A stretch of DNA of 16,062 nucleotides from Candidatus Brocadiaceae bacterium. GTDB taxonomy: Bacteria; Planctomycetota; Brocadiia; SM23-32. Both the position numbers and the translations under genes were made by a program. The notes beneath the pieces were generated by a model. That model did no database searches. It was not told where the DNA came from and saw only the letters and a list, made by a program, of their open reading frames with translations. Positions 3,434 through 15,954 of this stretch are shown here, in pieces; within the stretch, counting starts at the first letter, position 1, and each line of letters starts with the position of its first letter. The stretch spans positions 1 through 16,062 of the forward strand of contig PUNP01000446.1 in NCBI GenBank assembly GCA_003551785.1, read 5' to 3'.

Positions 3434-3919
3434 ATGGGAGCGAAGAAGTACATTGTTGAGCTCAGCGACGAAGATCGCAAGACGCTCGAATGGTTCACGT
3501 CCGCCGGTGAACAGAGGGCGCAAGCCAACACACGCGCACGTATCCTTCTGAAAGCTGACGACGGGCTCACTGATGCGACAATCAGTGAGCACGTCGGCTG
3601 TCACCCCCAAACCGTCCACAACACACGCAAAGACTACACTGAACGAGGGATTGCGGCGATTCATCGCCGCAAACCCGACCGTGAGTACGAACGCAAGCTT
3701 GACGGAAACGCCGAAGCCCACCTCATCAAACTCGCCTGCAGCGAACCACCAGAAGGACACTCTCGGTGGACACTACACCTCCTTGCCGACGAACTCGTTA
3801 CCCTTGACGAGATCGACTTCGAGTCGATCTCTCACGAGGCCGTCCGACAGCGGTTAAAAAAACGCCCTGAAACCTCATCTCTCCAGCTACTGGGAGATAC
3901 CTCCAGAACAGGACGCTGA
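3434..3919 (+). CDS. IS630-family transposase, N-terminal frame (helix-turn-helix part)
   Basis: The 161-codon frame encodes the DNA-binding half of the transposase. Residues 12-80 form a helix-turn-helix region (ARILLKADDGLTDATISEHV then GCHPQTVHNTRKDYTERG) that should bind the terminal repeats, followed by a second helical region up to the VRQRLKK motif at about residue 140. After that the frame reads out of register (RPETSSLQLLGDTSRTGR) to its stop. The expected continuation, KNALKPHLSSYWEIPPEQDA, lies in the +1 frame. That frame has a stop at 3855-3857, so the switch must happen at the seven A of 3856-3862. Either ribosomal frameshifting makes the full transposase or the copy is inactivated by one extra base. 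Confidence 0.85.
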   Translation: MGAKKYIVELSDEDRKTLEWFTSAGEQRAQANTRARILLKADDGLTDATISEHVGCHPQTVHNTRKDYTERGIAAIHRRKPDREYERKLDGNAEAHLIKLACSEPPEGHSRWTLHLLADELVTLDEIDFESISHEAVRQRLKKRPETSSLQLLGDTSRTGR

Positions 3920-4457
3920 CTTCGTCTACTACATGGAAGATGTTCTCAATCTCTACCACGAACCGTACGACGAAACCCGTCCAGTCATCTGTTTTGACGA
4001 ATCTAGCAAGGCTCTACGAGGACACGAACGCGACCCGCTCCCGGCCCGACCGGGAGCGGTCGCCCGATCCGATCACCGCTACAAACGCAATGGGAAACAA
4101 CGAATACATCTCTCGACAGAGCCGCTAACTGGCTGGGTAAACGTCGAAATCACCGAGAAGAGGCGAACAATAGAATGGATCGACCGAATGGTCGAACTCG
4201 CAGATATTCACTACCCGGATGCGGACTGCATCCGGGTTGTGATGGATCAGCTCAACACACACAAGCCTGCTGCCTTCTATCAGTTTTTCCCGCCAGAGTA
4301 TGCTCAAGCGTATCTTGATCGGTTCGAGTTTCATTACACGCCCAAGAGAGGAAGTTGGCTGAATATGGCCGAAATCGAGATAGGCGTCCTCAAACGGCAG
4401 TGTCTCGATCGGCGAATCTACCACGCAGCGACCCTCCGAGCGGAGGTCGCTGCGTGG
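3559..4457 (+). repeat. Series of six long hairpins inside the transposase coding sequence
   Basis: Six strong inverted repeats are spread along the transposase frames: 3565-3574 with 3581-3590 (10 bp, plus 5 more pairs at 3559-3563 with 3592-3596 after one mismatch); 3651-3660 with 3663-3672 (10 bp); 3809-3818 with 3822-3831 (10 bp); 4031-4044 with 4050-4062 (13 bp, one bulged C); 4213-4222 with 4228-4237 (10 bp, 5-base loop); and 4421-4438 with 4441-4457 (17 bp, one bulged C, 2-base loop). They lie within protein-coding sequence with conserved motifs nearby, so they are extra to the protein code. They could hold down translation of the transposase or fold as single-stranded DNA. Confidence 0.7.
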
Positions 4458-4580
4458 CAGAGGCGTCGAAACACGACCAATCGTCCCATTGACTGGCAGT
4501 TTACTACTGACGATGCCCGGATCAAACTACGCCAACTCTACCCAATTGAGACCGAAGAGGATCTACAGATTCACGCTTGA
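3933..4580 (+). CDS. IS630-family transposase, C-terminal frame (DDE catalytic part)
   Basis: This 215-codon frame holds the RNase H-like catalytic domain that cuts and joins DNA during transposition. Likely metal-binding residues are D22 in VICFDESSK, D105 in RVVMDQLNTHK and E147 in SWLNMAEIE; all are present, so the domain looks intact. The frame is open from 3858, directly after the stop at 3855-3857, and carries recognisable transposase sequence before the ATG. That ATG is therefore probably an internal Met, and the product is made by fusion with the upstream frame. The stop codon lies inside the right terminal repeat. It is transcribed convergently with the helicase gene. Confidence 0.85.
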   Translation: MEDVLNLYHEPYDETRPVICFDESSKALRGHERDPLPARPGAVARSDHRYKRNGKQRIHLSTEPLTGWVNVEITEKRRTIEWIDRMVELADIHYPDADCIRVVMDQLNTHKPAAFYQFFPPEYAQAYLDRFEFHYTPKRGSWLNMAEIEIGVLKRQCLDRRIYHAATLRAEVAAWQRRRNTTNRPIDWQFTTDDARIKLRQLYPIETEEDLQIHA

Positions 4581-4589
4581 AGCTACACT
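4577..4589 (-). repeat. Right terminal inverted repeat of the IS
   Basis: This is the reverse complement of AGTGTAGCTTCAA at 3377-3389, identical over 13 bases. It begins inside the last codons of the transposase and is followed by a run of five T at 4598-4602, which could help end transcription of the transposase. Confidence 0.7.
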
Positions 4590-4613
4590 GAGTCCTCTTT
4601 TTGCCAGCCTATC

Positions 4614-7523
4614 CTAGACCGAAAGAACCAGACACCGATTCTCCACTTCCGGAGCAAGCGAGATTACCTGCGCCTTTCGCTGAAGATCCGCTCGGCGATC
4701 CTCGATCCGTTGTTCGAGTTTGCGTAGCCGGTCTCGCTGATTTCGAATAGCGATGTTCATGTCCGAGCCCGCCTCTGCTTTGCGTTCGTACTCTTCGATG
4801 AATGTCTCGATCCGATCACGTTCGGCCGCTGCGTATGCCTCGAGGTCATCGAGCTCTTGCTGGGTTTCCTGTCGCCGGCGTTCGGAAAGCTCCTCCCTGA
4901 GTGTTTCGACGCGTTGACTGACGTACCTGTCCGCGACCGCTCGAAATTGTGCTCGCTGCTCGAGGAGTGCCCGAACGGACTGTGAATTCGGTGATCCCTT
5001 GATCGTATCGCCGTTGATGATTCGCTCGCCGAGTTGGCGGCGTGGATCGTGATGATTGACGTCGACGAAGATGGGAAGCATCTCCTCCCGAATGACCTCA
5101 CCAGTCCCGTCTTCGAACCGTACGCGGTAGTTGAAGACGATCCCCGGTTCGGAGACGAACGGGAGAAGTTTGAGACCGACGTCTCCCAGATCGCCGTCAA
5201 GCACCTGCTGCATGAGCCGTTGAACCAGCTCTGCGTCAGGAGAGATGTACTCGATCCCGTCGTGGTCCATGGCGAACTCACGATTGAACGTGAACGGACC
5301 GTACTCGTCGTCGCCGACAATCGGATCAAGTGTCGATGGCAGTTCAGCCCAAAAGAGGTTGTTCCCGGCTTTCTCGACATTGCCACCGAGGGCGGCAATA
5401 CCGCGTTCGAAGAACTCCCGAATATCCGCCTCGCTCCCGTAGACGTCTTCGGACTCGTCCATGACCTCCTGGATCTTTTGTCGACTCTCCTCGTCGAAGG
5501 TGCTGGCGTCGATAAGGCTCCGTTCGTACCACTCCTCGAGTGTGCGCTGGCGCTCATCGATGAGTTCCTCGAGTTCGTCTTTGGTCGCACTCGGCGGTTC
5601 ATCGTTGCGAATAGACTCCATGATGAGCGAGTCGACGTCGATGTCGTCGAGGATTCCCAGGACGTCGGCCGTGTTCCCGAGTTTCCCTCGGATGTTCTCG
5701 ACTTTGTCCTGGAGCATCTCGAAGATCTCCCCCTCACGAGTCTCCTTGAACGAGAAGTTCCACACCTTGACCTCCTTGTCCTGCCCGTAGCGATGGGTGC
5801 GCCCGATACGCTGCTCGAGGCGGTTCGGATTCCACGGGAGTTCGTAGTTCACCATGATGTGGCAGCTGTGCTGGAGGTCGATCCCCTCGCTTGCAGCATC
5901 GGTCGCAAACAGGAGTCGGGACTGTCCGTAGTTGAACTCCTCTTCGATACGAGCGCGGTCATCCTTGTCGACGTCACCGTGGATAACGAGGATCTCATCG
6001 GCCCACGGCTCGTCTTTCACGAGTTCGAGGAGGTAGTCCAGTGTGTCGCGGTACTCGGTGAACAACAGGACTTTCTCGTCGGGTTGTTCCTCGAGAAGCT
6101 GTTGGATGTAACGGCGTACCTTCTGTGCCTTCGAATCGACGGGAATCCGTTCGGCAAGCGAGACGAGGTCACGAAGTGTCTCGATTTCCTCTTCGAGCTG
6201 GGCATCGCTTTCAGTGATGGTGAGCCCCGCGAGCTCCTCTTCGGCCTGCTGTTTGTCGTCCTCGTCGAGATCCTCGCCCTCGAGGTAGGCCGTTGCCTCC
6301 TCTGAGAGTTCGGTGGACGTCGACTGCTCTTCGAGGAGATCGCCCAGTCGACGACTGAGCGTAGCTTTGATCGCGCCGATACTGCTGACGAGGCGCTTTT
6401 GCATGAGCGCCATCGCGAAGCCGACGGCCGGCTCGTTGAGTTTCTCCGAGCGGTTGTAGACGTTCTGGACGTACTCCGTGACGGCGTGGTAGAACTGGCG
6501 TTCCTCGTGGGACATCTCGACCGGAACCGTGTTGACGTCCCGATCGGGGAAGATACGCTCGCCATCCTCGTCGTAGATCGACTGTTTCCCACGACGCATC
6601 ATGACGCGGTCGACGGCCTCCTTCGAGAGGTCCTGGTCTTCGGCGACGACGAACGGGTCGACATACTCGACGAGCGAGCGGAACGCCTCGCCTTTCCCGT
6701 CGTGTGGCGTCGCACTGAGCAAGAGCAACGAGTCGGAGTTACTGACGACGCGTTCGGCCATCTTCGAAGTCTTGCTCGGTGACTCGCCACGCTTGGCGGC
6801 CTTGTGTGCCTCATCGACCACGACAACGTCCCAAAATGCGTCCTCGAGTTCGGGTTGGAACTCGTCCTGCCGAAGGAAGGCCATGCTGGTCACCATGCGC
6901 TGGTGGTCCTGATCCCAGATGTTCGCCTCCTCGCCGAGACGGCGACGCTCACCTTCGACCCACTGGCGGTCGGCCGGCGTGAGGTCGATGTCGAAAAAGC
7001 GGTCCATATCCCTGATCCACTTCTTCTGGAGGTGTGCCGGGACGACGAACAGGACGCGATCAGCACGATTGCGGGCGTCGAGCTCTTTGAGGATCAGGCC
7101 GGCCTCGATCGTCTTCCCCAGCCCGACGTCGTCGGCGATGAGCGCCCGTTGGCGGAGCTTCTGCATGACCCAGTTGACACAGGCGAGCTGGTAGGGCTCG
7201 AGACGGACGAGGGAGTTCGAGATGCTCAGCAGTTGCCCTTGCTCGTGGGCCATCTCGAGTTGCAACGCCTGTGAGCGTAGATCGAACCATTCGGCGGAGA
7301 CGGCTTCGTGTTCGGGATGAAGCTGGTCGGCCACCGCCGGCTCCAGCTTGGCAAGAGAATCACGTTTTTGTTCGATCTCGACGTCATCGATGCAGACCGT
7401 TTTCGCGCCGACACCCTCGACGTATGCCCGAAGATAGTCGAGATTTCCCACCGAGTAGGTCTTGATGACTTCCGCGGAGTTTCCGTTGAGAAGGATCGTG
7501 TCGCCGGGTTTGAACGAGGTCAT
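4614..7523 (-). CDS. brxHII: SNF2/HepA-type helicase of the BREX-like system (BrxHII-like)
   Basis: The 969-residue protein is a superfamily 2 ATP-dependent DNA translocase. Visible motifs are a helicase Q/I region with Walker A DDVGLGKT (131-138), Walker B DEAH (237-240), motif III SATPH (270-274), motif IV LLFTEYRDT (486-494), motif V SEGIDL (545-550) and motif VI QRIGRTHRYGQ (571-581). An acidic insert lies at about 400-450 between the two RecA lobes. The last 120 residues are mostly charged coiled coil. In BREX types 3 and 5 a helicase of this COG0553 class accompanies PglX and PglZ. DrmD of DISARM is a related alternative, but no drmA, drmB or drmC is present and pglZ is. It is the last gene of the operon and overlaps the nuclease gene by ATGA at 7520-7523, with GGGAGA just upstream. 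An IS starts 24 bases past its stop. Confidence 0.85.
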   Translation of the reverse strand: MTSFKPGDTILLNGNSAEVIKTYSVGNLDYLRAYVEGVGAKTVCIDDVEIEQKRDSLAKLEPAVADQLHPEHEAVSAEWFDLRSQALQLEMAHEQGQLLSISNSLVRLEPYQLACVNWVMQKLRQRALIADDVGLGKTIEAGLILKELDARNRADRVLFVVPAHLQKKWIRDMDRFFDIDLTPADRQWVEGERRRLGEEANIWDQDHQRMVTSMAFLRQDEFQPELEDAFWDVVVVDEAHKAAKRGESPSKTSKMAERVVSNSDSLLLLSATPHDGKGEAFRSLVEYVDPFVVAEDQDLSKEAVDRVMMRRGKQSIYDEDGERIFPDRDVNTVPVEMSHEERQFYHAVTEYVQNVYNRSEKLNEPAVGFAMALMQKRLVSSIGAIKATLSRRLGDLLEEQSTSTELSEEATAYLEGEDLDEDDKQQAEEELAGLTITESDAQLEEEIETLRDLVSLAERIPVDSKAQKVRRYIQQLLEEQPDEKVLLFTEYRDTLDYLLELVKDEPWADEILVIHGDVDKDDRARIEEEFNYGQSRLLFATDAASEGIDLQHSCHIMVNYELPWNPNRLEQRIGRTHRYGQDKEVKVWNFSFKETREGEIFEMLQDKVENIRGKLGNTADVLGILDDIDVDSLIMESIRNDEPPSATKDELEELIDERQRTLEEWYERSLIDASTFDEESRQKIQEVMDESEDVYGSEADIREFFERGIAALGGNVEKAGNNLFWAELPSTLDPIVGDDEYGPFTFNREFAMDHDGIEYISPDAELVQRLMQQVLDGDLGDVGLKLLPFVSEPGIVFNYRVRFEDGTGEVIREEMLPIFVDVNHHDPRRQLGERIINGDTIKGSPNSQSVRALLEQRAQFRAVADRYVSQRVETLREELSERRRQETQQELDDLEAYAAAERDRIETFIEEYERKAEAGSDMNIAIRNQRDRLRKLEQRIEDRRADLQRKAQVISLAPEVENRCLVLSV

Positions 7524-7993
7524 TTCTCTCCCACCGGTGAGTGTTGTGCCGTCTCGATCTGCTCTCCCGTCTCTGCGTCGTTCATATGCTCGCGAAACGC
7601 TCGGTCGAACGTATAGTCCTCGAGGAGATTTGCCTCGCTTGCATTATGATCGCTCAACTCGTCGCTGTCCTTTGTGTTTACCCTGAAATTGTTGTTGCCG
7701 ACTTCGTCGAAAGACACATAGAACACCTCGTCTGTCTCCACGATATACCCCGCAAAGATGTCGACCTGCCCTTCCTGATATTGGCCCGTGAACAGTCGAT
7801 ATTTCCAGGGCTTCTCGTTGCTCCTGTTCGCCTTCTTGACCTGCACTCGGAGCAGCTCGTCGTCTCTGTCAGCGACGAGGTCGTATTTGTACAGTCCATG
7901 GGTGTAGGACACTCGGCAGCCCTTGCGAACGAGGTCGGTTGCGACGGCGAACTCCGCTACTTCTCCATCGACATGACCTTCGTTACGAGTCAT
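7520..7993 (-). CDS. Small PD-(D/E)XK endonuclease-like protein (PDDEXK_5 type) within the operon
   Basis: I place the start at the ATG at 7991-7993 because a GGAGGTGA ribosome binding site lies 8 bases upstream; the in-frame GTG at 8003-8005 is part of that site. The 157-residue product has the fold signature of the restriction-nuclease-like group: an N-terminal helix with E5 and E11, then RKGCRVSY, D38 in YKYDLVAD, and QVK (51-53) in LRVQVKKA. In the PDDEXK_5 family and in relatives of archaeal Holliday junction resolvases the acidic residue of the last motif is often Gln, as here, so activity is plausible. The C-terminal 50 residues are acidic. It lies between pglZ (74 bases upstream of this ATG) and the helicase (4-base overlap), so it is probably translated together with the helicase. 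It is not among the standard BREX genes I know. Confidence 0.75.
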   Translation of the reverse strand: MTRNEGHVDGEVAEFAVATDLVRKGCRVSYTHGLYKYDLVADRDDELLRVQVKKANRSNEKPWKYRLFTGQYQEGQVDIFAGYIVETDEVFYVSFDEVGNNNFRVNTKDSDELSDHNASEANLLEDYTFDRAFREHMNDAETGEQIETAQHSPVGEK

Positions 7994-8001
7994 ACAACTG
8001 T

Positions 8002-8009
8002 TCACCTCC
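8002..8009 (-). promoter_or_regulatory. Strong ribosome binding site that fixes the nuclease start
   Basis: On the minus strand the bases read GGAGGTGA, a near-perfect match to the haloarchaeal 16S rRNA 3' end, 8 bases before the ATG at 7993. It contains the alternative GTG start within itself, which argues for the ATG. It is the clearest ribosome binding site in the operon, suggesting that the nuclease is translated independently of pglZ. Confidence 0.8.
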
Positions 8010-8067: not shown

Positions 8068-10242
8068 TTACTCCTGCGTGATCGTGACGTAGTTCAACAC
8101 GAACTCCTGTGGGAGGACGCCCCCGTGGTAGAACCGTGCGTCGGGGAGCCCCTGATTCCGGAACCGCTGGATCGGATCGGAGAGCACACTGAGTTTGGTC
8201 TCACCATCCAGATAGCCGAGGTGGGCGTTCTCGTCGAGTAACACGCCGGGTGCATCGTTATCGAGGTCTTTGCCGGCGACCCACCGGCGAGTGACTCTTT
8301 CGGCTTCCGACGGTGGGTGGAGGTCGTCGATGTCCACGTGTTTCGGCAACGAGACGAAGCCGTGATCGGAGAGGATGTACGCACGATCCCACTCTCCCTG
8401 ATCGAGTTTCTCACAGATGATCTCCGAGATGATCTCGATCCGGTCTTTGAACACCGACTGGAAGTCGGTCAACTCCTCTTCGCCGCTCTTATCGATGTCG
8501 TTCCAGTAGTAGACAACGCGGTTCTCACCCCAGCCGACTTCGGGCTCGTCGTTCTGTGTGATGAAACTCCAGCCGTCGTTTTCGAACAGCGACCTGCGGC
8601 GGCTGTAGGTTATTTTTCGCCCGTTTCGCTCCGGGACCAGCTCGCCATCTCGAAGATCGATGTTGAAGCTAAATTTGCTTCCCGGGGTGAGTGCGCCCTT
8701 TCCGAACTCCGTATCGGCGGGGAGCGTTCCGACCCAGGGGTTCTCCTCGACCTCGAGGTCCGGCAGTTCGCGACGGATCGATTCGGCGAGGTCGTGTGCG
8801 AGGTCGAAACGCAGTGCGTCGATGATGAACAGCGCGACTCGCTGGCCACTCTGGAGGAACTCCTGTTCGGTGGCGAAAAACTGGTGGGCGTGGTTCTCAC
8901 CGACGAACGGCGAGCCCGCTTCGATCTGGTCGACCACGAGATCGCCGAGGTCTGTGAGATACTCGAGGTAGCCCGTCTCCACCAGCGATGACCGGATGCC
9001 CTCGAGTGTTGCCGTTGCGGGGTGTTCCTCGGGGAGGTCGTGTTCAGGAGCTCCCGAGACGGAGAGATTGTAGACGGCGTGGTCGATCTGCCAGGTTCCC
9101 GACTCTACGTCGCCGTAGAGGGAGACGACGTCGTCGGTGTCACCCCGGTCTTCCCACGTCTCGAGTTCGTTCGCGAGTCTGGCGACGTCGATCGCCTGGT
9201 TCCAGACTTTCGTCCACGGCACATCCCCGTAGGTTCGCTCGAGGCGGTTGCTTCGGAGTCTCGCCTGTGAGACACACGTCTCGTACTCCCCGGCGTGGTA
9301 GGTCTGGAGCCACGCGTCCCAGAGTTCGGTCTCGAGTGAGCCATCAACGGGACAGTCCGCGAGCTCCCACGGATCGTCGTAGGTTCGGATCACGTCGTGC
9401 CAGAACGGACGGTCGGGATCGAGATAGACCGCTGCGAGTTCCGCTGGCCGGTCGGTCTTGCTGAGCGCCGACTGGAGATTCGGCCGGGAGATGCCAAGAC
9501 CTGAACTGGGCTCTGGCTGGTACGCTGTGGGAAGGAGGTCGATCTCGAGGCCCTCCTCGACGAGCCACTCGGCGACCGCCCACTGTCGGGTGCGTTCGGC
9601 GAGCGTCTCCGGGTCGGTGATGCCCTCGACGGCGGCGACGCCGTCTTCGACCAGCAGATCGCGGATCTTCCGGAGGTCGGCTTCCCCACCATCGTCGTCT
9701 GGATCGGGGAGGTTCGAAACGCTGTGTCCGAGGACGAACTCGATGGCATCGTCGTGGCCGTCGAGGACGATCTTCGTCTGGAGCCCTCGAAGCGACGGCA
9801 GCCCGCCCCCGTCGTCGAGTTCCGCAAAGAGCGTCCGGGCGATGTCCTCGCGATCGTCCCCTTCGGCGGCTTCGTAGGCGGTTCGGATCGAGGTCGCCTG
9901 GAGGCGTTCGTCCTCGAAACAGTGGGTCGCGAGTTTGCCGATGTGGTACTCGAGGACGCCCCCTGTGTGTTTGACGTCTCGGAACCAGTCGACGTCCTCG
10001 TCGGGTGCCTGGGGGACGTACCAGACGGTTCGCCCCTCTGGGGCCTCCCCACGGAGCTCGAGGGGAGTCGTCTCCGCAGCCCGGAAGGCACACTCGAGGT
10101 CGGCGCTCGCACGCTCGACGATCTCGCGGAGGTGGCCGCCCTCGTCCCACCAGAGGATGGTGGGATCGTCGTCGTATGCCTCGTCGATGGCGTTCCGGAT
10201 GGCATCGCGGGCACATTCGGGGAGGGTTTTGGTGGCGACCAT
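8068..10242 (-). CDS. pglZ: PglZ, alkaline-phosphatase-superfamily protein of the BREX-like system
   Basis: The 724-residue protein has the PglZ domain in its C-terminal half. IIDALRFD (473-480) gives the first metal-binding aspartates, LPADTEFGKGALTPG has the likely nucleophile T511, SDHGF (625-629) supplies Asp and His for metal, and YHGGVLPQE (705-713) is the closing motif typical of PglZ. The N-terminal 450 residues are helical and acidic with no motif I can name. PglZ is required in every BREX subtype and is thought to act on nucleotide or DNA phosphate groups, although its substrate is not settled. The gene starts two bases after the pglX stop, showing tight co-transcription, and 74 bases separate its end from the start of the next gene. 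The residues needed for activity appear intact. Confidence 0.92.
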   Translation of the reverse strand: MVATKTLPECARDAIRNAIDEAYDDDPTILWWDEGGHLREIVERASADLECAFRAAETTPLELRGEAPEGRTVWYVPQAPDEDVDWFRDVKHTGGVLEYHIGKLATHCFEDERLQATSIRTAYEAAEGDDREDIARTLFAELDDGGGLPSLRGLQTKIVLDGHDDAIEFVLGHSVSNLPDPDDDGGEADLRKIRDLLVEDGVAAVEGITDPETLAERTRQWAVAEWLVEEGLEIDLLPTAYQPEPSSGLGISRPNLQSALSKTDRPAELAAVYLDPDRPFWHDVIRTYDDPWELADCPVDGSLETELWDAWLQTYHAGEYETCVSQARLRSNRLERTYGDVPWTKVWNQAIDVARLANELETWEDRGDTDDVVSLYGDVESGTWQIDHAVYNLSVSGAPEHDLPEEHPATATLEGIRSSLVETGYLEYLTDLGDLVVDQIEAGSPFVGENHAHQFFATEQEFLQSGQRVALFIIDALRFDLAHDLAESIRRELPDLEVEENPWVGTLPADTEFGKGALTPGSKFSFNIDLRDGELVPERNGRKITYSRRRSLFENDGWSFITQNDEPEVGWGENRVVYYWNDIDKSGEEELTDFQSVFKDRIEIISEIICEKLDQGEWDRAYILSDHGFVSLPKHVDIDDLHPPSEAERVTRRWVAGKDLDNDAPGVLLDENAHLGYLDGETKLSVLSDPIQRFRNQGLPDARFYHGGVLPQEFVLNYVTITQE

Positions 10243-10244
10243 GG

Positions 10245-13200
10245 TTAGAGCACGTCTTTTTCGACCGTCTTGGGGACGATTTCAGCGTCAGCAAGCGGTG
10301 TGATATTAATCACGACGCCGTGTTTGTGGTTCGGCCGGTAGCCGGCGGTCGTAATCTCCGAGAGTGCACGGTCGGCCCAGTCAGACGAGAGGTCTGCCGA
10401 GACAGCGTCGCACGCGTCGGAAATTTCCCCTGCACGTTCTTTATACTCCTCGAGGCCGCTCGCCAACTCCGAGAGCAAGTGTTGCTTGCGGGAGGCCCCG
10501 CCGTCGCCGAGTTGTGCCTGTTCTGGCTCTTCGAACTTGTCGTAGTAGTAGGTCGTAAACAGGATGCCGTTACTCGCATAGTGGGTGGACCCGACGAGAT
10601 CGTCGTAATACTCGAAGAGGTCGTAGAGATGTGCCTCGACGGGTTCAGAGCCATCCTCAGCGTATGCCTCAAAGGCCGATTCGAGGTCCTCGAGTGCGTC
10701 CAGCCACTCCTCGCGGTTTTCCTGTACCGTGTCGTAGAACGAAGGACTAAACAGGTCTTCCATGTCGACGTTCTCGAGGTCAGCCAGTTCTTCGAGGGCC
10801 TCGAGTCGTCGTGCGGTTTCCTCGCGGAACTGTGCGACCTTCCCGGCAGCCTCGCGGGCGATCTCGCGGTTTTCTTCGGGCCATTCCCGAGGTTCGGGCT
10901 GTGCTAAATCGCTGAGTCGATCCTCGAGGACGGCGATCTGCTCGAGGGCACTCTCACATCGGCTGTACTCCTCTGCCGCGTCAGCTTTCTCAGAAGCGGA
11001 GAGCGATTCGTCGCTTCGGCGGCGGTTAGCCGCGCTGCGTCGTTCCCGTAGGAGGGCTTTCCGGGGCTCGAGGTAGCGGTTCTGGAGTTTGTCAAAGACG
11101 CTGGCGTCGAGCTGGTGGTAATCGATCAGACAGGCGAAGCCCTCCCCGTCGGGGTCGGAGACCAGGCGTTCGGTGGTGAGCCGCCAGAGGATCGGTGTTC
11201 GGTCGAATTTCGAGACGTGGTACTCGAAGAGATCGTCCTCGAGCCACACCCGGAGGTTGGGATAGGCTTCTTCGTCAGCCGTCCGACTACCGAGCACTTG
11301 ATCGACCTCGGCCAGTCGGTCGGTGGCGTACTCGCCGAAGACTCGCTCGAACTCGTCCTCGATGCGCTCGAGGAGGTCGGACTCGCGCTCTACATTCGAA
11401 ATTGGGACGATACCATCATCGTCTTCTTTCACAGATTTTATAACTAAATGGTGTAAAAGATCTTCAATTAACTTTCTCAATTCATTATCATTCACTTCTT
11501 CTGAAGACTTGCTCCTAGGATTTTCGTTAGTTCGAATAGTAATTTCGGTGAGTATATCCTCTCTGAGGTCTTCTGTAAGACCAAAAAAGTCTATAATCTC
11601 ATTATTTATGTCAAGTGATGCCTGATGCAACCTTTCCTCAAGTTCTTTTAGATGTTCAATTGCGTACTCTCCTAATTTCTCGATCGAGGTGGTTTTAGGC
11701 AGAATTTCTGGAGTGGAAGGTGTCTCAATTCTCTCACAAAGTTCTCTATGAACATGCTGTTTATGCCAGCCAAAGGAATCAGACACTCCAATAGTCGCGA
11801 GAATCACCGGGCCATCATAATATAGTGATGATATTTCGTATTGACGCCTTCCTATTAGGTTCCCAACTGCTTCTTTTGTTAGATTATTAGTCTGGGTTTT
11901 TGTCTCTATCTCTTTGGGATATGGTATTTTTGACACCTGGCTCACTTCCCAGTTTCGGTCAGGGGTTTGCCCTATCATGAGGTAAGTGAATAGGTTACTA
12001 TTTGAATAACCGAGAATGGACCAAGTATCTACGTCTGGCGCAAATACTTTTCCAGTATGGTCGAATAACGAGCCTGGGTTAAGATAACCAAATCGGCGTC
12101 CCCCTTCCTTAATATATGTGTATGTTATTAATTCTCTGAAATAATATTCTTCATTTCTTGGGTATGATCCTTTATACCTTTTCACTTCTTTACCCTGATT
12201 TCCCCAAAAAACTTTCCTGTCAACTCGCGGTAAAAGCCAAGCATCTTTCCCACCTTTAGCATAGGGAACAAACCCATCGTCAGTAGTTTCCCAGAACCGT
12301 CTCGTGAATCGAGCATTATCTCCAGAGGTAAGACCCGCTTTAACTGACCCTGCACTATTCGTGTCTACACCTGCGTTATCTGCGTCAAATATCACTTCCG
12401 AATCAAATAAAGACCGGATTTCTTTAGGGATCCAATAAGAGAGCGGCGAGCCTGGGATCAAAGAAAACTCTCTTAAATAACGGTTATATAGACGTTTAAC
12501 TTGCCGATCAGAATCTCTAAATGCCGTTTCGAGAAATGCCTTTTCTTTAGAGTTTTTCTCTATATCATGTAGTCGGAAAAATACTGCCCTTGAATCTTTG
12601 TCAGCTTTTGTTCCTGCTCTCACTACTGTTCCTGCGGTTCTCACTGTCGCATTATCCAACACATCGTTTCCATATTCAGCTAAGAAATCGAAAGAGCCAA
12701 TTTCACCGATGAAATCTTCTCGGAAATCTTCAAGACTTTTCTTAAACATGAATGTCCGGGGAACGATCATCCCAATACGACCATTCTCTTTAATTACTGA
12801 GTTGCATACTTCGAAAAAGTTGATGTAGAATTCTGCAGTATATCTGTAATTATCCTCGAGATAGTGTCTGACGTCGGATGGAATTCGGCTTTGAGATCCG
12901 TACGGCGGATTCATCAATGCTACGTCGTAATCCTGGGTCAACACCACCAGCAGATTGAGGAAACTCCGGAGGTTCTGCTCGCCGAAGGAGTCCGACGCTC
13001 GCTCGTCGACGGCCTCGCGCAGCGCCTTGAGGAAGGCGTTCAGCGTCTTCGGACCGTCGTCGGTATAGTCCAGCAGGTCAGTCTGGTCCTCGAGGAACTC
13101 CTCGGAGAGTGTCCCCTGAACGTCCAGTAGGCTACCGAGGGCTTCGGTGGTCTGGAACTCCTCGATGATCTCCTCGAGGGCGGCGCGGACGTCGGTTCCC

Positions 13201-14432
13201 TCGCCGGTGATCTCGTTGAGCACCTCGACAGCCTCCTCGACTTCGGCGACTCGAGCGTCGGCACAGACGATCCCGACGTTCGGCATCTCGAAGTCACCGT
13301 CTTCCTCCTCAGCTCGCGTTCGGGCTTTGAGATAGAGGTTGAACGCGGAGAGTTGGCACGAACGAAGGTCGATGTCGACCCCGTAGAGGTTGTGCTCAAG
13401 GATCTTCGCAGGGATCTCGTGGCGCTCGAGGTCTGGCCGTTCGGCCCACCAGATTCGCTCGAGGATGTCGAAGGCATAGAGCAAGAAGTGTCCACTTCCA
13501 CAAGCAGGATCGATGACACGGAGTTCCGACGGATCGCTGAACGACGGTGCATCTTGGTCGCCCTCGTCGGGAATCAGATAGGTACACAGCGACGGGATAT
13601 CCGGTGAGTCTTCAGGCGTGACGAGGCGTTCCTTTCGCTCCTCGATCGAGAGGGCGTCCGGCTCTGGAACTGTTGCTTCCTTGCCCGTCGACTCGAGATA
13701 GAGCTTCCCCAGGCTGTTATCCGCGAGCATTCGCACGACCCAGTGGGGCGTGTAGAACTGATTGGCCGGACCGACGTCGTCGGGCTCGAGTGTGTTCTTC
13801 GCGTCGAGATCCTCGACAACGGGGCGGTTGTAGTACTCATAAACCCACCCCAGGACTTCGTCAGCCCGCCAGACCTCATCCGGGACCGTATCGAGCAACG
13901 AACAGACGTCCTCGAACGTGTCGTCATCGGGATCGACCAAGCTGTAGGCCGTCGACCGATCGAACAGGATCTCGATCTCCTCGGCTAACTCATCACACGC
14001 CTCGTGATAGGCTTCGAGGATCGCCTCGTCCTCGAGTAAGAACTCCTCGTAGACGAGCGTCTCCGCGGCAGGCGTGAGTCCGTTGTCCTTGAACACGGTG
14101 ACCTCCTCCTCGAGAAAGCCCCGCACCTCCATACAGCGCAACGCGGCCAGCCGATTGACGATCGTGTAGCCGACACCGGTGACGTACTGCTCGAAGGCCT
14201 CCGCCCAGGCCGTGTCGTCGACGGCCTCGAGTTCGATCGCCTCGACGAGCTTTCGGTCCTCGGCTCCGAGCTCGTCTGTGTTTTCCGGCTCGTCCTCGAG
14301 ATCCCGCTGGGTCAGCTGAAAGCGGACGTTGTCCTCGACGCGCTCGCGCATATCCGCGACGACGTCCTCGAGGTGTTCACGCTCTGCTTTGTCCAACTGC
14401 GCCTTCCGCTGGGAAAGAGAATCGCCTGCCAT
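10245..14432 (-). CDS. pglX: PglX, BREX-type adenine-specific DNA methyltransferase
   Basis: The 1395-residue protein has a helical N-terminus, then QFYTPHWVV (225-233), S-adenosylmethionine motif I DPACGSGHF (308-316), motif II-like GVDID (351-355) and the catalytic NPPY (508-511) in ALMNPPYGSQ. These define a gamma-class N6-adenine methyltransferase. Residues about 515-1000 would include the end of the catalytic core and the target-recognition region. Residues about 1000-1395 are charged and partly coiled coil. BREX PglX methylates host DNA to mark self and takes part in blocking phage DNA. The DNA for residues 515-1000 (about 11430-12890) is strikingly AT-rich while both ends are GC-rich, suggesting that this module was exchanged. 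The ATG has no ribosome binding site, and a TTAAAG-like box lies about 45 bases upstream. It is first in a tight operon with pglZ. Confidence 0.92.
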   Translation of the reverse strand: MAGDSLSQRKAQLDKAEREHLEDVVADMRERVEDNVRFQLTQRDLEDEPENTDELGAEDRKLVEAIELEAVDDTAWAEAFEQYVTGVGYTIVNRLAALRCMEVRGFLEEEVTVFKDNGLTPAAETLVYEEFLLEDEAILEAYHEACDELAEEIEILFDRSTAYSLVDPDDDTFEDVCSLLDTVPDEVWRADEVLGWVYEYYNRPVVEDLDAKNTLEPDDVGPANQFYTPHWVVRMLADNSLGKLYLESTGKEATVPEPDALSIEERKERLVTPEDSPDIPSLCTYLIPDEGDQDAPSFSDPSELRVIDPACGSGHFLLYAFDILERIWWAERPDLERHEIPAKILEHNLYGVDIDLRSCQLSAFNLYLKARTRAEEEDGDFEMPNVGIVCADARVAEVEEAVEVLNEITGEGTDVRAALEEIIEEFQTTEALGSLLDVQGTLSEEFLEDQTDLLDYTDDGPKTLNAFLKALREAVDERASDSFGEQNLRSFLNLLVVLTQDYDVALMNPPYGSQSRIPSDVRHYLEDNYRYTAEFYINFFEVCNSVIKENGRIGMIVPRTFMFKKSLEDFREDFIGEIGSFDFLAEYGNDVLDNATVRTAGTVVRAGTKADKDSRAVFFRLHDIEKNSKEKAFLETAFRDSDRQVKRLYNRYLREFSLIPGSPLSYWIPKEIRSLFDSEVIFDADNAGVDTNSAGSVKAGLTSGDNARFTRRFWETTDDGFVPYAKGGKDAWLLPRVDRKVFWGNQGKEVKRYKGSYPRNEEYYFRELITYTYIKEGGRRFGYLNPGSLFDHTGKVFAPDVDTWSILGYSNSNLFTYLMIGQTPDRNWEVSQVSKIPYPKEIETKTQTNNLTKEAVGNLIGRRQYEISSLYYDGPVILATIGVSDSFGWHKQHVHRELCERIETPSTPEILPKTTSIEKLGEYAIEHLKELEERLHQASLDINNEIIDFFGLTEDLREDILTEITIRTNENPRSKSSEEVNDNELRKLIEDLLHHLVIKSVKEDDDGIVPISNVERESDLLERIEDEFERVFGEYATDRLAEVDQVLGSRTADEEAYPNLRVWLEDDLFEYHVSKFDRTPILWRLTTERLVSDPDGEGFACLIDYHQLDASVFDKLQNRYLEPRKALLRERRSAANRRRSDESLSASEKADAAEEYSRCESALEQIAVLEDRLSDLAQPEPREWPEENREIAREAAGKVAQFREETARRLEALEELADLENVDMEDLFSPSFYDTVQENREEWLDALEDLESAFEAYAEDGSEPVEAHLYDLFEYYDDLVGSTHYASNGILFTTYYYDKFEEPEQAQLGDGGASRKQHLLSELASGLEEYKERAGEISDACDAVSADLSSDWADRALSEITTAGYRPNHKHGVVINITPLADAEIVPKTVEKDVL
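11430..12890 (-). other. AT-rich block within pglX covering the specificity region
   Basis: The reading frame is continuous, but base composition changes sharply: one sampled 60-base line inside (11581-11640) has 21 G or C (35%), against 37 of 60 (62%) in a line outside (13081-13140). The right border lies just beyond the codons for NPPY, and the left border near codon 1000. In type I-like and BREX methyltransferases this is where target recognition resides. The pattern fits recombination that swapped the recognition module between conserved flanks. Confidence 0.7.
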
Positions 14433-14646
14433 AGGAGATGTGTGTCTACTATGCTCGAGTCACACGACTGTCTTTAATGTTGCTCAACAGGTATTCACGT
14501 CAACTCACGTCCCGATTCAACGCTTTCTGTAGCACTACGAGCACAGGGGACACCACTCTTTCAAGTGATCAGCTTTGGCACCTACATTAAGATAGCCCGT
14601 CTGCGCTGAAACCAAGGAATTTCGATATTGAATACAGCCGAAGAAA
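14433..14646. promoter_or_regulatory. Intergenic region with probable pglX promoter
   Basis: The 214 bases between the MCM-nuclease stop and the pglX start are longer than any gap within the operon, so pglX probably has its own promoter here. Read toward pglX, a TTAAAG-like box lies around 14475-14480, about 45 bases before the ATG. No other element could be recognised, and no clear terminator for the upstream gene is visible. Confidence 0.35.
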
Positions 14647-15954
14647 TTACCTCGCAGACGAGAAGGCTCCTAACAGCGAGTCTGTCGCCTCAACGGACTC
14701 GCGGGTTAGCAGGCGAAACAAGCCGCTGTTCATCGGCAGTGCAGACACCGTCACTGCGAATATAGGTGTAAGATCTTCGTCTTCGTCCAGTGGGACGCCG
14801 TACAGGCGAAACTCGTCGCCCGATGCCAGCATCCCAACTTCACAGCCGAACGCCCGCGCGTAGCGTTCGAGTTGTCCCTTGCACTCACGTAGGTCTGTTG
14901 CTGGTGACTTTGCCTCTACGGGTATCCGCGGCTCGTCTGAAGAATCGACGAGCATGTAGTCGACCTGGCCACTCATCCCTGGTTCCGAATACTCAAGGCG
15001 CAGTTGCCGGCTGTAGACGTTCCAGCCGAGAAGGTGCAGTAACGGTGTGATGATTTTCGCTTGCGCTTCCTCCTCTACGAGTGGCTGTTGGTAGGCCAGT
15101 ATCTCCGAACTGCGGTTAGCGAATTCCGACAACGCCTTCGTGAGTTCGTCGTCAGACGGGGGCTCCAGCCCGAGATACGGGTCTAACGCCGGCGTTGGAA
15201 CCGGCGATTCCTCACCCGGTGCCAGCGAGTTCGCCAGCACCGTGATTCGGGGGCGGCGACCGTCCATTTTAGTGTTGTGAACGATGCCCGAAACTGCGAC
15301 CTCGCTCAGCGGGAGGTCCTCCACCGCGTCGATGAGTTCGTGGCGAAATTCAATGATTACCTCACCATTCCGTGGCTCGGTTGTCGTTGGAATAACCGTC
15401 GCGAACAATGATTCGACGCGCTTGGACTCGGGGCTGTTAACGACGAACGGTCGCTCGGTCCCACACCCGTCGCAGCGAACCGGTTCCTTGAGGCCTCTTC
15501 CCACCTGCTGACGATTAACTCGATTACCGCAATACTCGCAATCAAATGCAGCGGTGGCCAGCCGTGCTTGTACCTCGCCGACTGTCTCGATAGTAGCCTC
15601 AAAACTAACCAGCTTCCCCACCTCGTCAAACAGGTTTTCTGACTCAGTTTGCTCGGGAATGTTGGTAAAGCGGACGAATGGTGCCTCATTCCGGTCGGGA
15701 TTGTCTGGATCAAACGCCAGTTGGCCGTGCGGCGGCTTCGCAGGGTATGTCGCCAGCGCATGTTCAGCTATCTCGAAGAACTCGTCGGGTTCCTCCAGCA
15801 CCGCCCATCCCCACTCATCGTTGTGTTCGTTGAGGTCTGCCCAGTCAATGTACATCGACCGCTGATTAGGGAACTCTGCGGCCAGATCAACAACATCGAC
15901 GTGGTAATACTCCATCAGGAACTCATGGAACCCTTCCACTGAAACCGCCGTCAT
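14647..15954 (-). CDS. MCM N-terminal domain fused to PD-(D/E)XK nuclease (HSDR_N-like), no ATPase
   Basis: The first 250 of 435 residues match the N-terminal part of archaeal MCM replicative helicase: domain A (FLMEYYHVDVVDLAAEFPN, then RSMYIDWADLNEHND), an OB-fold (KLVSFEATIETVGEVQARL), and a C4 zinc finger at C139, C142, C161 and C164. The MCM AAA+ ATPase does not follow. Instead residues about 285-390 form a restriction-type nuclease domain: EEEAQAKIITPLLHLLGW (294-311), D332 in GQVDYML, VEAK (346-349) and a later QLERYARAFG helix, as in the HSDR_N family of type I restriction subunits. The OB-fold and finger should bind single-stranded DNA or forks, and the nuclease would cut it. It lies 214 bases upstream of pglX on the same strand, probably with its own promoter. 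A defence effector is likely, a degraded replication gene less so. Confidence 0.85.
   Translation of the reverse strand: MTAVSVEGFHEFLMEYYHVDVVDLAAEFPNQRSMYIDWADLNEHNDEWGWAVLEEPDEFFEIAEHALATYPAKPPHGQLAFDPDNPDRNEAPFVRFTNIPEQTESENLFDEVGKLVSFEATIETVGEVQARLATAAFDCEYCGNRVNRQQVGRGLKEPVRCDGCGTERPFVVNSPESKRVESLFATVIPTTTEPRNGEVIIEFRHELIDAVEDLPLSEVAVSGIVHNTKMDGRRPRITVLANSLAPGEESPVPTPALDPYLGLEPPSDDELTKALSEFANRSSEILAYQQPLVEEEAQAKIITPLLHLLGWNVYSRQLRLEYSEPGMSGQVDYMLVDSSDEPRIPVEAKSPATDLRECKGQLERYARAFGCEVGMLASGDEFRLYGVPLDEDEDLTPIFAVTVSALPMNSGLFRLLTRESVEATDSLLGAFSSAR

Follow-up and report, generated by a model that had tools for sequence, protein, structure and literature searches.

Auxiliary PD-(D/E)XK nucleases are described as a recurrent theme in BREX loci and in DUF499/Hma loci in the sections of PMC12839542 covered here, where the DUF499-type operons are named BREX-Related. 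The nuclease partners described in these sections are HARE-HTH, ATPase, SF2 helicase and Shedu-type sensory modules, and in the main text, references aside, "MCM" is used solely for the BrxL motor. According to the portion of PMC12988326 covered, several Hma-embedded genes were antiviral in assays. The protein described here is encoded in a stretch of 16,062 nucleotides from a halophilic archaeon, hereafter the window. Like the auxiliary effectors of PMC12839542, it lies beside core BREX genes, and relatives lie within a DUF499/DUF1156/helicase operon, but the partner of its nuclease is an MCM module. Nuclease cargo in BREX/Hma loci is already known, while the MCM-derived version was found undescribed among the matches listed. 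No description of an MCM-nuclease fusion appeared among the matches listed from the titles and abstract beginnings of the open-licence literature, or in 12 of the 19 places concerned in PMC3972481, and the "MCM" matches in PMC11090510 were author names (McMahon).

Both halves of the protein have solved counterparts. The N-terminal half resembles the N-terminal domain of archaeal MCM (MthMCM, 1ltl; PfMCM, 4pof), from which the window protein differs in having neither an AAA+ motor nor a winged helix. The C-terminal half has the fold and the D-E-x-K active site in common with the N-terminal nuclease of HsdR and the nuclease domains of DrdV and BpuSI, whereas its chain lacks both an SF2 translocase and a methyltransferase domain. 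DrdV is a restriction enzyme with its methyltransferase in the same chain. The features of the window are as follows.

14647-15954, minus strand: MCM-nuclease fusion gene, 435 aa, ATG start at 15954 (ORF, Pfam, NCBIfam)
15214-15954, minus strand: MCM N-terminal module, residues 1-247, with A domain, OB fold and zinc finger
15463-15540, minus strand: C4 zinc finger, C139 C142 C161 C164, invariant
14755-15153, minus strand: PD-(D/E)XK nuclease domain, residues ~268-400
14908-14961, minus strand: active-site stretch D332...E347-x-K349, invariant in 21/21 fusions
14433-14646, no strand: 214 bp gap between fusion gene and pglX, probable cargo slot together with the fusion gene
10245-14432, minus strand: BREX-5 adenine methyltransferase gene pglX, 1395 aa (NF033454, 2300 bits, cut-off 900)
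8068-10242, minus strand: BREX-5 pglZ, 724 aa (NF033444, 1072 bits, cut-off 250)
7520-8005, minus strand: second, small auxiliary PD-(D/E)XK nuclease gene, 161 aa (Pfam PDDEXK_5, 55.4 bits, cut-off 26.1)
4614-7523, minus strand: BREX-5 helicase gene brxHII, 969 aa (PADLOC BrxHII, 1930 bits)

An open reading frame is present exactly at 14647-15954 on the minus strand, and the plus-strand frame over the same interval contains many stops. An earlier note on this DNA had read the product as an MCM A domain, OB fold and C4 zinc finger followed by a PD-(D/E)XK nuclease (D332, E347, K349) in place of the AAA+ motor. The architecture is borne out. Pfam matches MCM_OB and MCM_N (E 4.5e-7 and 4.1e-6, respectively) with scores that pass the curated cut-offs, and lists no AAA+/MCM motor family for the window protein up to E 10. 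The NCBIfam MCM model covers no more than residues 9-231, and its score there (58.9 bits, E 2.8e-16) falls far short of the whole-protein cut-off of 940. Archaeal MCM chains were matched in the PDB at E values down to 3.5e-12 with the single sequence and down to 4e-30 with the family profile. The cysteines and the three nuclease residues are those named in the note.

In the fold comparison, the MCM-derived half and the nuclease half each have fold matches, and the nuclease domain has a restriction-endonuclease fold, with the DrdV N-terminal domain and HsdR among its best solved-structure matches. The Pfam HSDR_N_2 score of the window protein (24.8 bits) is slightly under the cut-off of 25; relatives score higher with the HSDR_N-type profile (L001, 34.7 bits; L002, 34.4 bits). 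Pfam matches no helicase family, and hence no SF2 translocase, in the 435 residues, and a profile from real haloarchaeal MCM C-termini finds no C-terminal winged helix in the window protein. The domain and residue pattern of the fusion is far beyond chance. Two other assignments were rejected. Cas12f is the only PADLOC match of the window protein at E 0.01, a local match (E 9.6e-5) confined to the zinc-finger region, residues 103-168. An HVO_2753-type zinc protein also matches the zinc-finger region, under the cut-off.

The first protein search returned the window protein on three contigs and seven relatives with 37-80% identity. Counting that of the window, 21 fusions are now known, some of them near-copies (P0008, L001, L014), retrieved by protein searches (P0002-P0009, P0018-P0020), from plasmids (L001, L002) and by genome scans (L014-L019, L137). 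C139, C142, C161, C164, D332, E347 and K349 are invariant in 10/10 aligned sequences, window protein included, and the four zinc cysteines and the three nuclease residues are kept in all 21 fusions. Intact catalytic and zinc residues across so diverse a family argue for selection on a working, putative nuclease. A Walker A motif was found in none of the 21 fusions under four patterns, each of which was positive in 7/7 real MCMs. We also reject a sequencing error that removed the motor from a genuine MCM, since the fusion recurs in 21 proteins, all with the nuclease residues conserved. Five haloarchaeal proteins without an MCM part (L020-L024, 333-363 aa) carry the same nuclease domain at their N-terminus.

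The family is rare and patchy. The fusion occurs in at least 7 of 391 class genomes, a lower bound because the scan scored at most four candidates per genome. Profile scans for clade A, the group containing the window protein, were positive in 3/170 and 3/146 genomes and in 2/392 of the phylum; these samples and that of 391 genomes overlap. A scan of genome contigs with the window protein as single query gave no match, and the same scan with the family alignment gave a Haloglomus plasmid as its sole match. A viral-contig scan with the family alignment gave no match.

Clade A comprises the window protein, P0002-P0008, P0018-P0020, L001 and L014, and the remaining fusions make up clade B. In the nuclease tree, the 13 rows of clade A form one group (support 99/99), and a single origin of the 19 fusions in this tree was not rejected (p-AU 0.313), long branches being present. 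In the MCM-half tree, the 10 rows of clade A form a separate group (support 100/100), and a long branch of 1.42 changes per column divides them from every MCM row, viral and plasmid ones among them. Seven clade B fusions are intermixed with real MCMs with low support inside, and 16 of the 29 inner branches of this tree are left open because their support is low. Neither tree includes L137, P0009 is in the MCM-half tree only, and L015 was shortened by 60 residues for the MCM-half tree. The row MCM_L006chr, in a wrong frame, is excluded from this tree and from the residue comparison below.

Some clade B fusions keep both ends of MCM. A winged helix follows the nuclease in 3 of the 21 fusions, L137, L015 and L002 (clade B, 522-545 residues), which score 50.8, 44.3 and 17.5 bits with a profile of the C-termini of seven real MCMs from haloarchaea; among 2000 shuffled tails the highest score is 11.9 bits. 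With the Pfam archaeal MCM winged-helix model, L137 reaches 21.4 bits, under the cut-off of 26.1, and L002 is not listed by Pfam, its match coming from the seven-MCM profile alone. P0009 is an incomplete sequence in which a winged helix is not assessable. The nuclease is predicted to occupy the position of the AAA+ motor in L137, L015 and L002, and fusions of this kind look like a clear one-frame replacement of motor by nuclease. The clade A proteins, that of the window included, end shortly past the nuclease. In L019, an MCM gene at the contig edge (12-992, minus strand) and the fusion gene (4411-5685, minus strand) lie within 3.5 kb.

The residues by which MCM grips DNA are mostly missing from the fusions. 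In PfMCM, the main single-stranded DNA contacts are R124 and R186, assisted by K129 (part of PMC3970758), and F179 is central to the hexamer interface, with F179A monomeric in solution (part of PMC4627082). The window protein has T124, Q129, T186 and R179 at these positions. Among 17 fusions, basic residues occupy position 124 in 2, position 129 in 3 and position 186 in 7; positions 124 and 186 are both basic in 1/17 fusions versus 5/5 real haloarchaeal MCMs, all five of which are also basic at 129 and have F at 179. F179 is kept in 9/17 fusions and in 2/10 clade A rows. The earlier note had extended the single-strand and fork binding of MCM N-terminal domains to this protein, a step that these residues do not support. 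MCM-style gripping of single-stranded DNA by the window protein is unlikely on this evidence, and a ring, if it forms one, would have to be held differently from that of MCM. With both the single-strand residues and the hexamer phenylalanine lost, ring formation and DNA binding by the MCM half appear doubtful. The hairpin after the OB fold carries four basic residues in the window protein (counted stretch) versus 0-2 in real haloarchaeal MCMs, so some DNA binding may still be possible; the L002 row stops before this hairpin in the residue comparison. Fork or double-stranded DNA binding through other residues is possible. The fold and the zinc site are what the MCM half has retained.

The genes pglX, pglZ, the PDDEXK_5 gene and brxHII all lie downstream of the fusion gene on the same strand, and the PglX, PglZ and BrxHII of type 5 mark this neighbourhood as BREX type 5 proper. 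The two brxC genes, brxA and brxB were not found within the window. A BREX-5 PglX is encoded in 20 plasmid records; in the 10 of these that were viewed, the usual order is brxA-brxC-brxB-brxC-[cargo]-pglX-pglZ-brxHII, and in L033 the brxA-brxC part is divergent. The brxC genes are annotated as hypothetical or unnamed; five of them, from four loci, match PADLOC BrxC with 1924-2587 bits. The interval between the second brxC gene (brxC2) and pglX is a cargo slot in BREX-5. Its length is 20-7756 bp, with a median of 1776, and reaches at least 400 bp in 33 of 39 unique collinear slots. In the larger gaps, length and amino-acid bias served to call ORFs, without a gene finder, and the matches listed for the 75 slot ORFs include NucS_C (8), PDC-S11 (8), KwaB (6) and KwaA (6). 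Slots of this kind (L065-L124) hold NucS_C-like, Kiwa, AAA_15/OLD-like ATPase, TATA-binding and HTH genes. The NucS_C-like proteins of ~347 aa in other BREX-5 loci share this slot and are likewise putative nucleases, with a marginal NucS_C match (24.0 bits, cut-off 24) and, in the one member searched, no MCM part in Pfam.

The fusion gene, 214 bp upstream of pglX, probably fits this slot. We infer this placement because brxC2 falls outside the window, whose last 108 bp, past the start of the fusion gene, show no BrxC tail. The earlier note had placed the gene directly upstream of a BREX-like operon on the same strand. Proximity and strand hold and the type is BREX-5, but "upstream" is more likely "inside", since the expected upstream BREX genes fall beyond the window. 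Association with BREX genes is not a general rule for the family. The fusion gene was found in none of 60 other BREX-5 stretches, chosen as near full length and several of them overlapping or closely related, so the BREX link is one locus, and the fusion was rejected as a BREX core gene on the same count.

The second context of clade A is an Hma-type operon. On Haloplanus rubicundus plasmid pCBA1112-02 (L001) and in genome G241 (L014), a relative 37% identical to the window protein is encoded in an operon with genes for a DUF499 ATPase, a DUF7680 protein, a DUF1156 methyltransferase and an SNF2 helicase, the fusion lying between the last two. PADLOC matches for this operon are HmaC (300 bits) and HmaB (195); its helicase matches PLD_Helicase (233), PbeA (224), BrxHI (214) and HmaA (203 bits). 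With such mixed matches, "Hma-type" is a family-level label. Hma-embedded candidates (HEC/PDC) sit in operons of this type as well, and the HEC/PDC models of PADLOC match neither the window protein (E 0.01) nor the L001 relative (E 0.001). The L001 and L014 fusion genes are 96% identical and therefore count as one independent Hma context, which gives clade A two independent known contexts. The DUF499 proteins of L001 and L014 are 98% identical and the helicases 96%, whereas the DUF1156 methyltransferases (L001, 15027-17909; L014, 10875-13838) are only 65% identical, which looks like a specificity swap.

Clade B relatives have other neighbours. The fusion gene is preceded by nucleotidyltransferase and Cap15 genes (CBASS-like) in L016, overlaps an SRAP gene with a GmrSD gene close by in L017, and lies upstream of helicase genes and a Piwi gene in L002. 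With few neighbours scanned, L018 shows only an HNH gene about 1 kb off on the other strand, and no defence partner was seen for L015, L019 and L137. The defence role that the note had proposed from the BREX genes is backed by the Hma-type operons and by the CBASS-like and SRAP/GmrSD neighbours of relatives.

We modestly favour the reading of the fusion as an auxiliary nuclease against invaders that forms part of the cargo of a BREX type 5 locus, with the MCM half as recruiting scaffold. The C-terminal HsdR_N-type PD-(D/E)XK domain would cut DNA. The MCM-derived N-terminal part may form a scaffold, stiffened by zinc, on which subunits assemble and which directs the nuclease to invading DNA under replication or remodelling. 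The fusion would work alongside BREX and not as a core part of it. Self DNA may be spared through methylation by the neighbouring methyltransferase, or the target may be found only in invaders. If it works in this way, the protein links replication machinery to immunity, with a nuclease guided by a scaffold borrowed from a helicase, and the MCM-nuclease fusion makes it possible to test directly how the replication of viral DNA is stopped by BREX-associated systems.

A bolder reading, which we consider rather unlikely, is that the MCM motor was swapped for a restriction nuclease in proteins, travelling as BREX/Hma cargo, that join or mimic the MCM rings of viruses and plasmids, or dock on the host ring, and cut the fork of the invader. 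If true, a replicative helicase would have been turned into an immune weapon. Potential targets exist, as haloarchaeal viruses have their own MCMs (the four phage records matched are two of BJ1, HJTV-4 and Humcor1) and a gene annotated as MCM lies under the best place in 12 of 28 matched plasmid records. The retention of zinc finger and fold with loss of the protein's own single-strand grip is what a partner-reliant subunit might show, and in three relatives the nuclease is still flanked by both ends of MCM. However, the hexamer-interface phenylalanine is arginine in the window protein and seldom kept in clade A, and the long clade A branch stands apart from viral and plasmid MCMs as from all others. 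The possibility that the protein is instead a restriction subunit acting in trans appears unlikely too. Its direct partner would be the adenine methyltransferase encoded next to it, PglX in BREX and DUF1156 in Hma, which would recognise unmethylated sites, and the MCM half would be no more than a connector. A methyltransferase gene does adjoin the fusion in the window and in L001/L014, the nuclease is most similar to DrdV and HsdR among others, and the MCM-less nuclease cousins lie near a large methyltransferase gene in three of the five plasmids viewed, directly in L022 and with one annotated gene between in L020 and L021. These methyltransferases are only distantly PglX-like (BREX_1_MTaseX, 66-100 bits, cut-off 500), and the other two cousins have no annotated methyltransferase in the 20 kb viewed. 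Nor was one seen beside the clade B fusions, where few neighbours were scanned or annotated, and the absence of the fusion gene from all 60 other BREX-5 stretches also speaks against such a partnership.

Quite unlikely, in our view, is a housekeeping or repair function, in which the nuclease would trim stalled forks and occur in defence regions only through shared plasmid travel. The MCM origin of the N-terminal half would suit such a role, as would the overlap with the SRAP gene in L017, the SRAP family being linked to single-stranded DNA lesions. A repair gene would not be expected to show the scattered occurrence found among the class genomes, and the relatives embedded in the Hma-type operon of L001 and L014 argue against a passenger. 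The auxiliary anti-invader nuclease remains the preferred reading.

Several further observations concern the BREX-5 genes and the left part of the window. The PDDEXK_5 protein (7520-8005) is encoded directly upstream of brxHII, and homologues with 61-81% identity adjoin brxHII in 8 of the 60 BREX-5 stretches, some of which overlap and represent one locus. Two pglX genes flank pglZ in 14 of the 60 stretches, some overlapping (L065, L068, L072-L076, L082, L086, L091, L103, L105, L108 and L110). A DUF2254 membrane protein is encoded at 1-2061 on the minus strand, incomplete at the window start, with a G+C content of 39% compared to 53-63% in the BREX genes. At 3434-4580 on the plus strand lies a transposase in two ORFs (HTH, DDE_3), which we take to be IS630-like, ending 33 bp from brxHII. 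In L016, copies of this transposase with 99.5-100% identity lie 1.5 kb away from the fusion gene.
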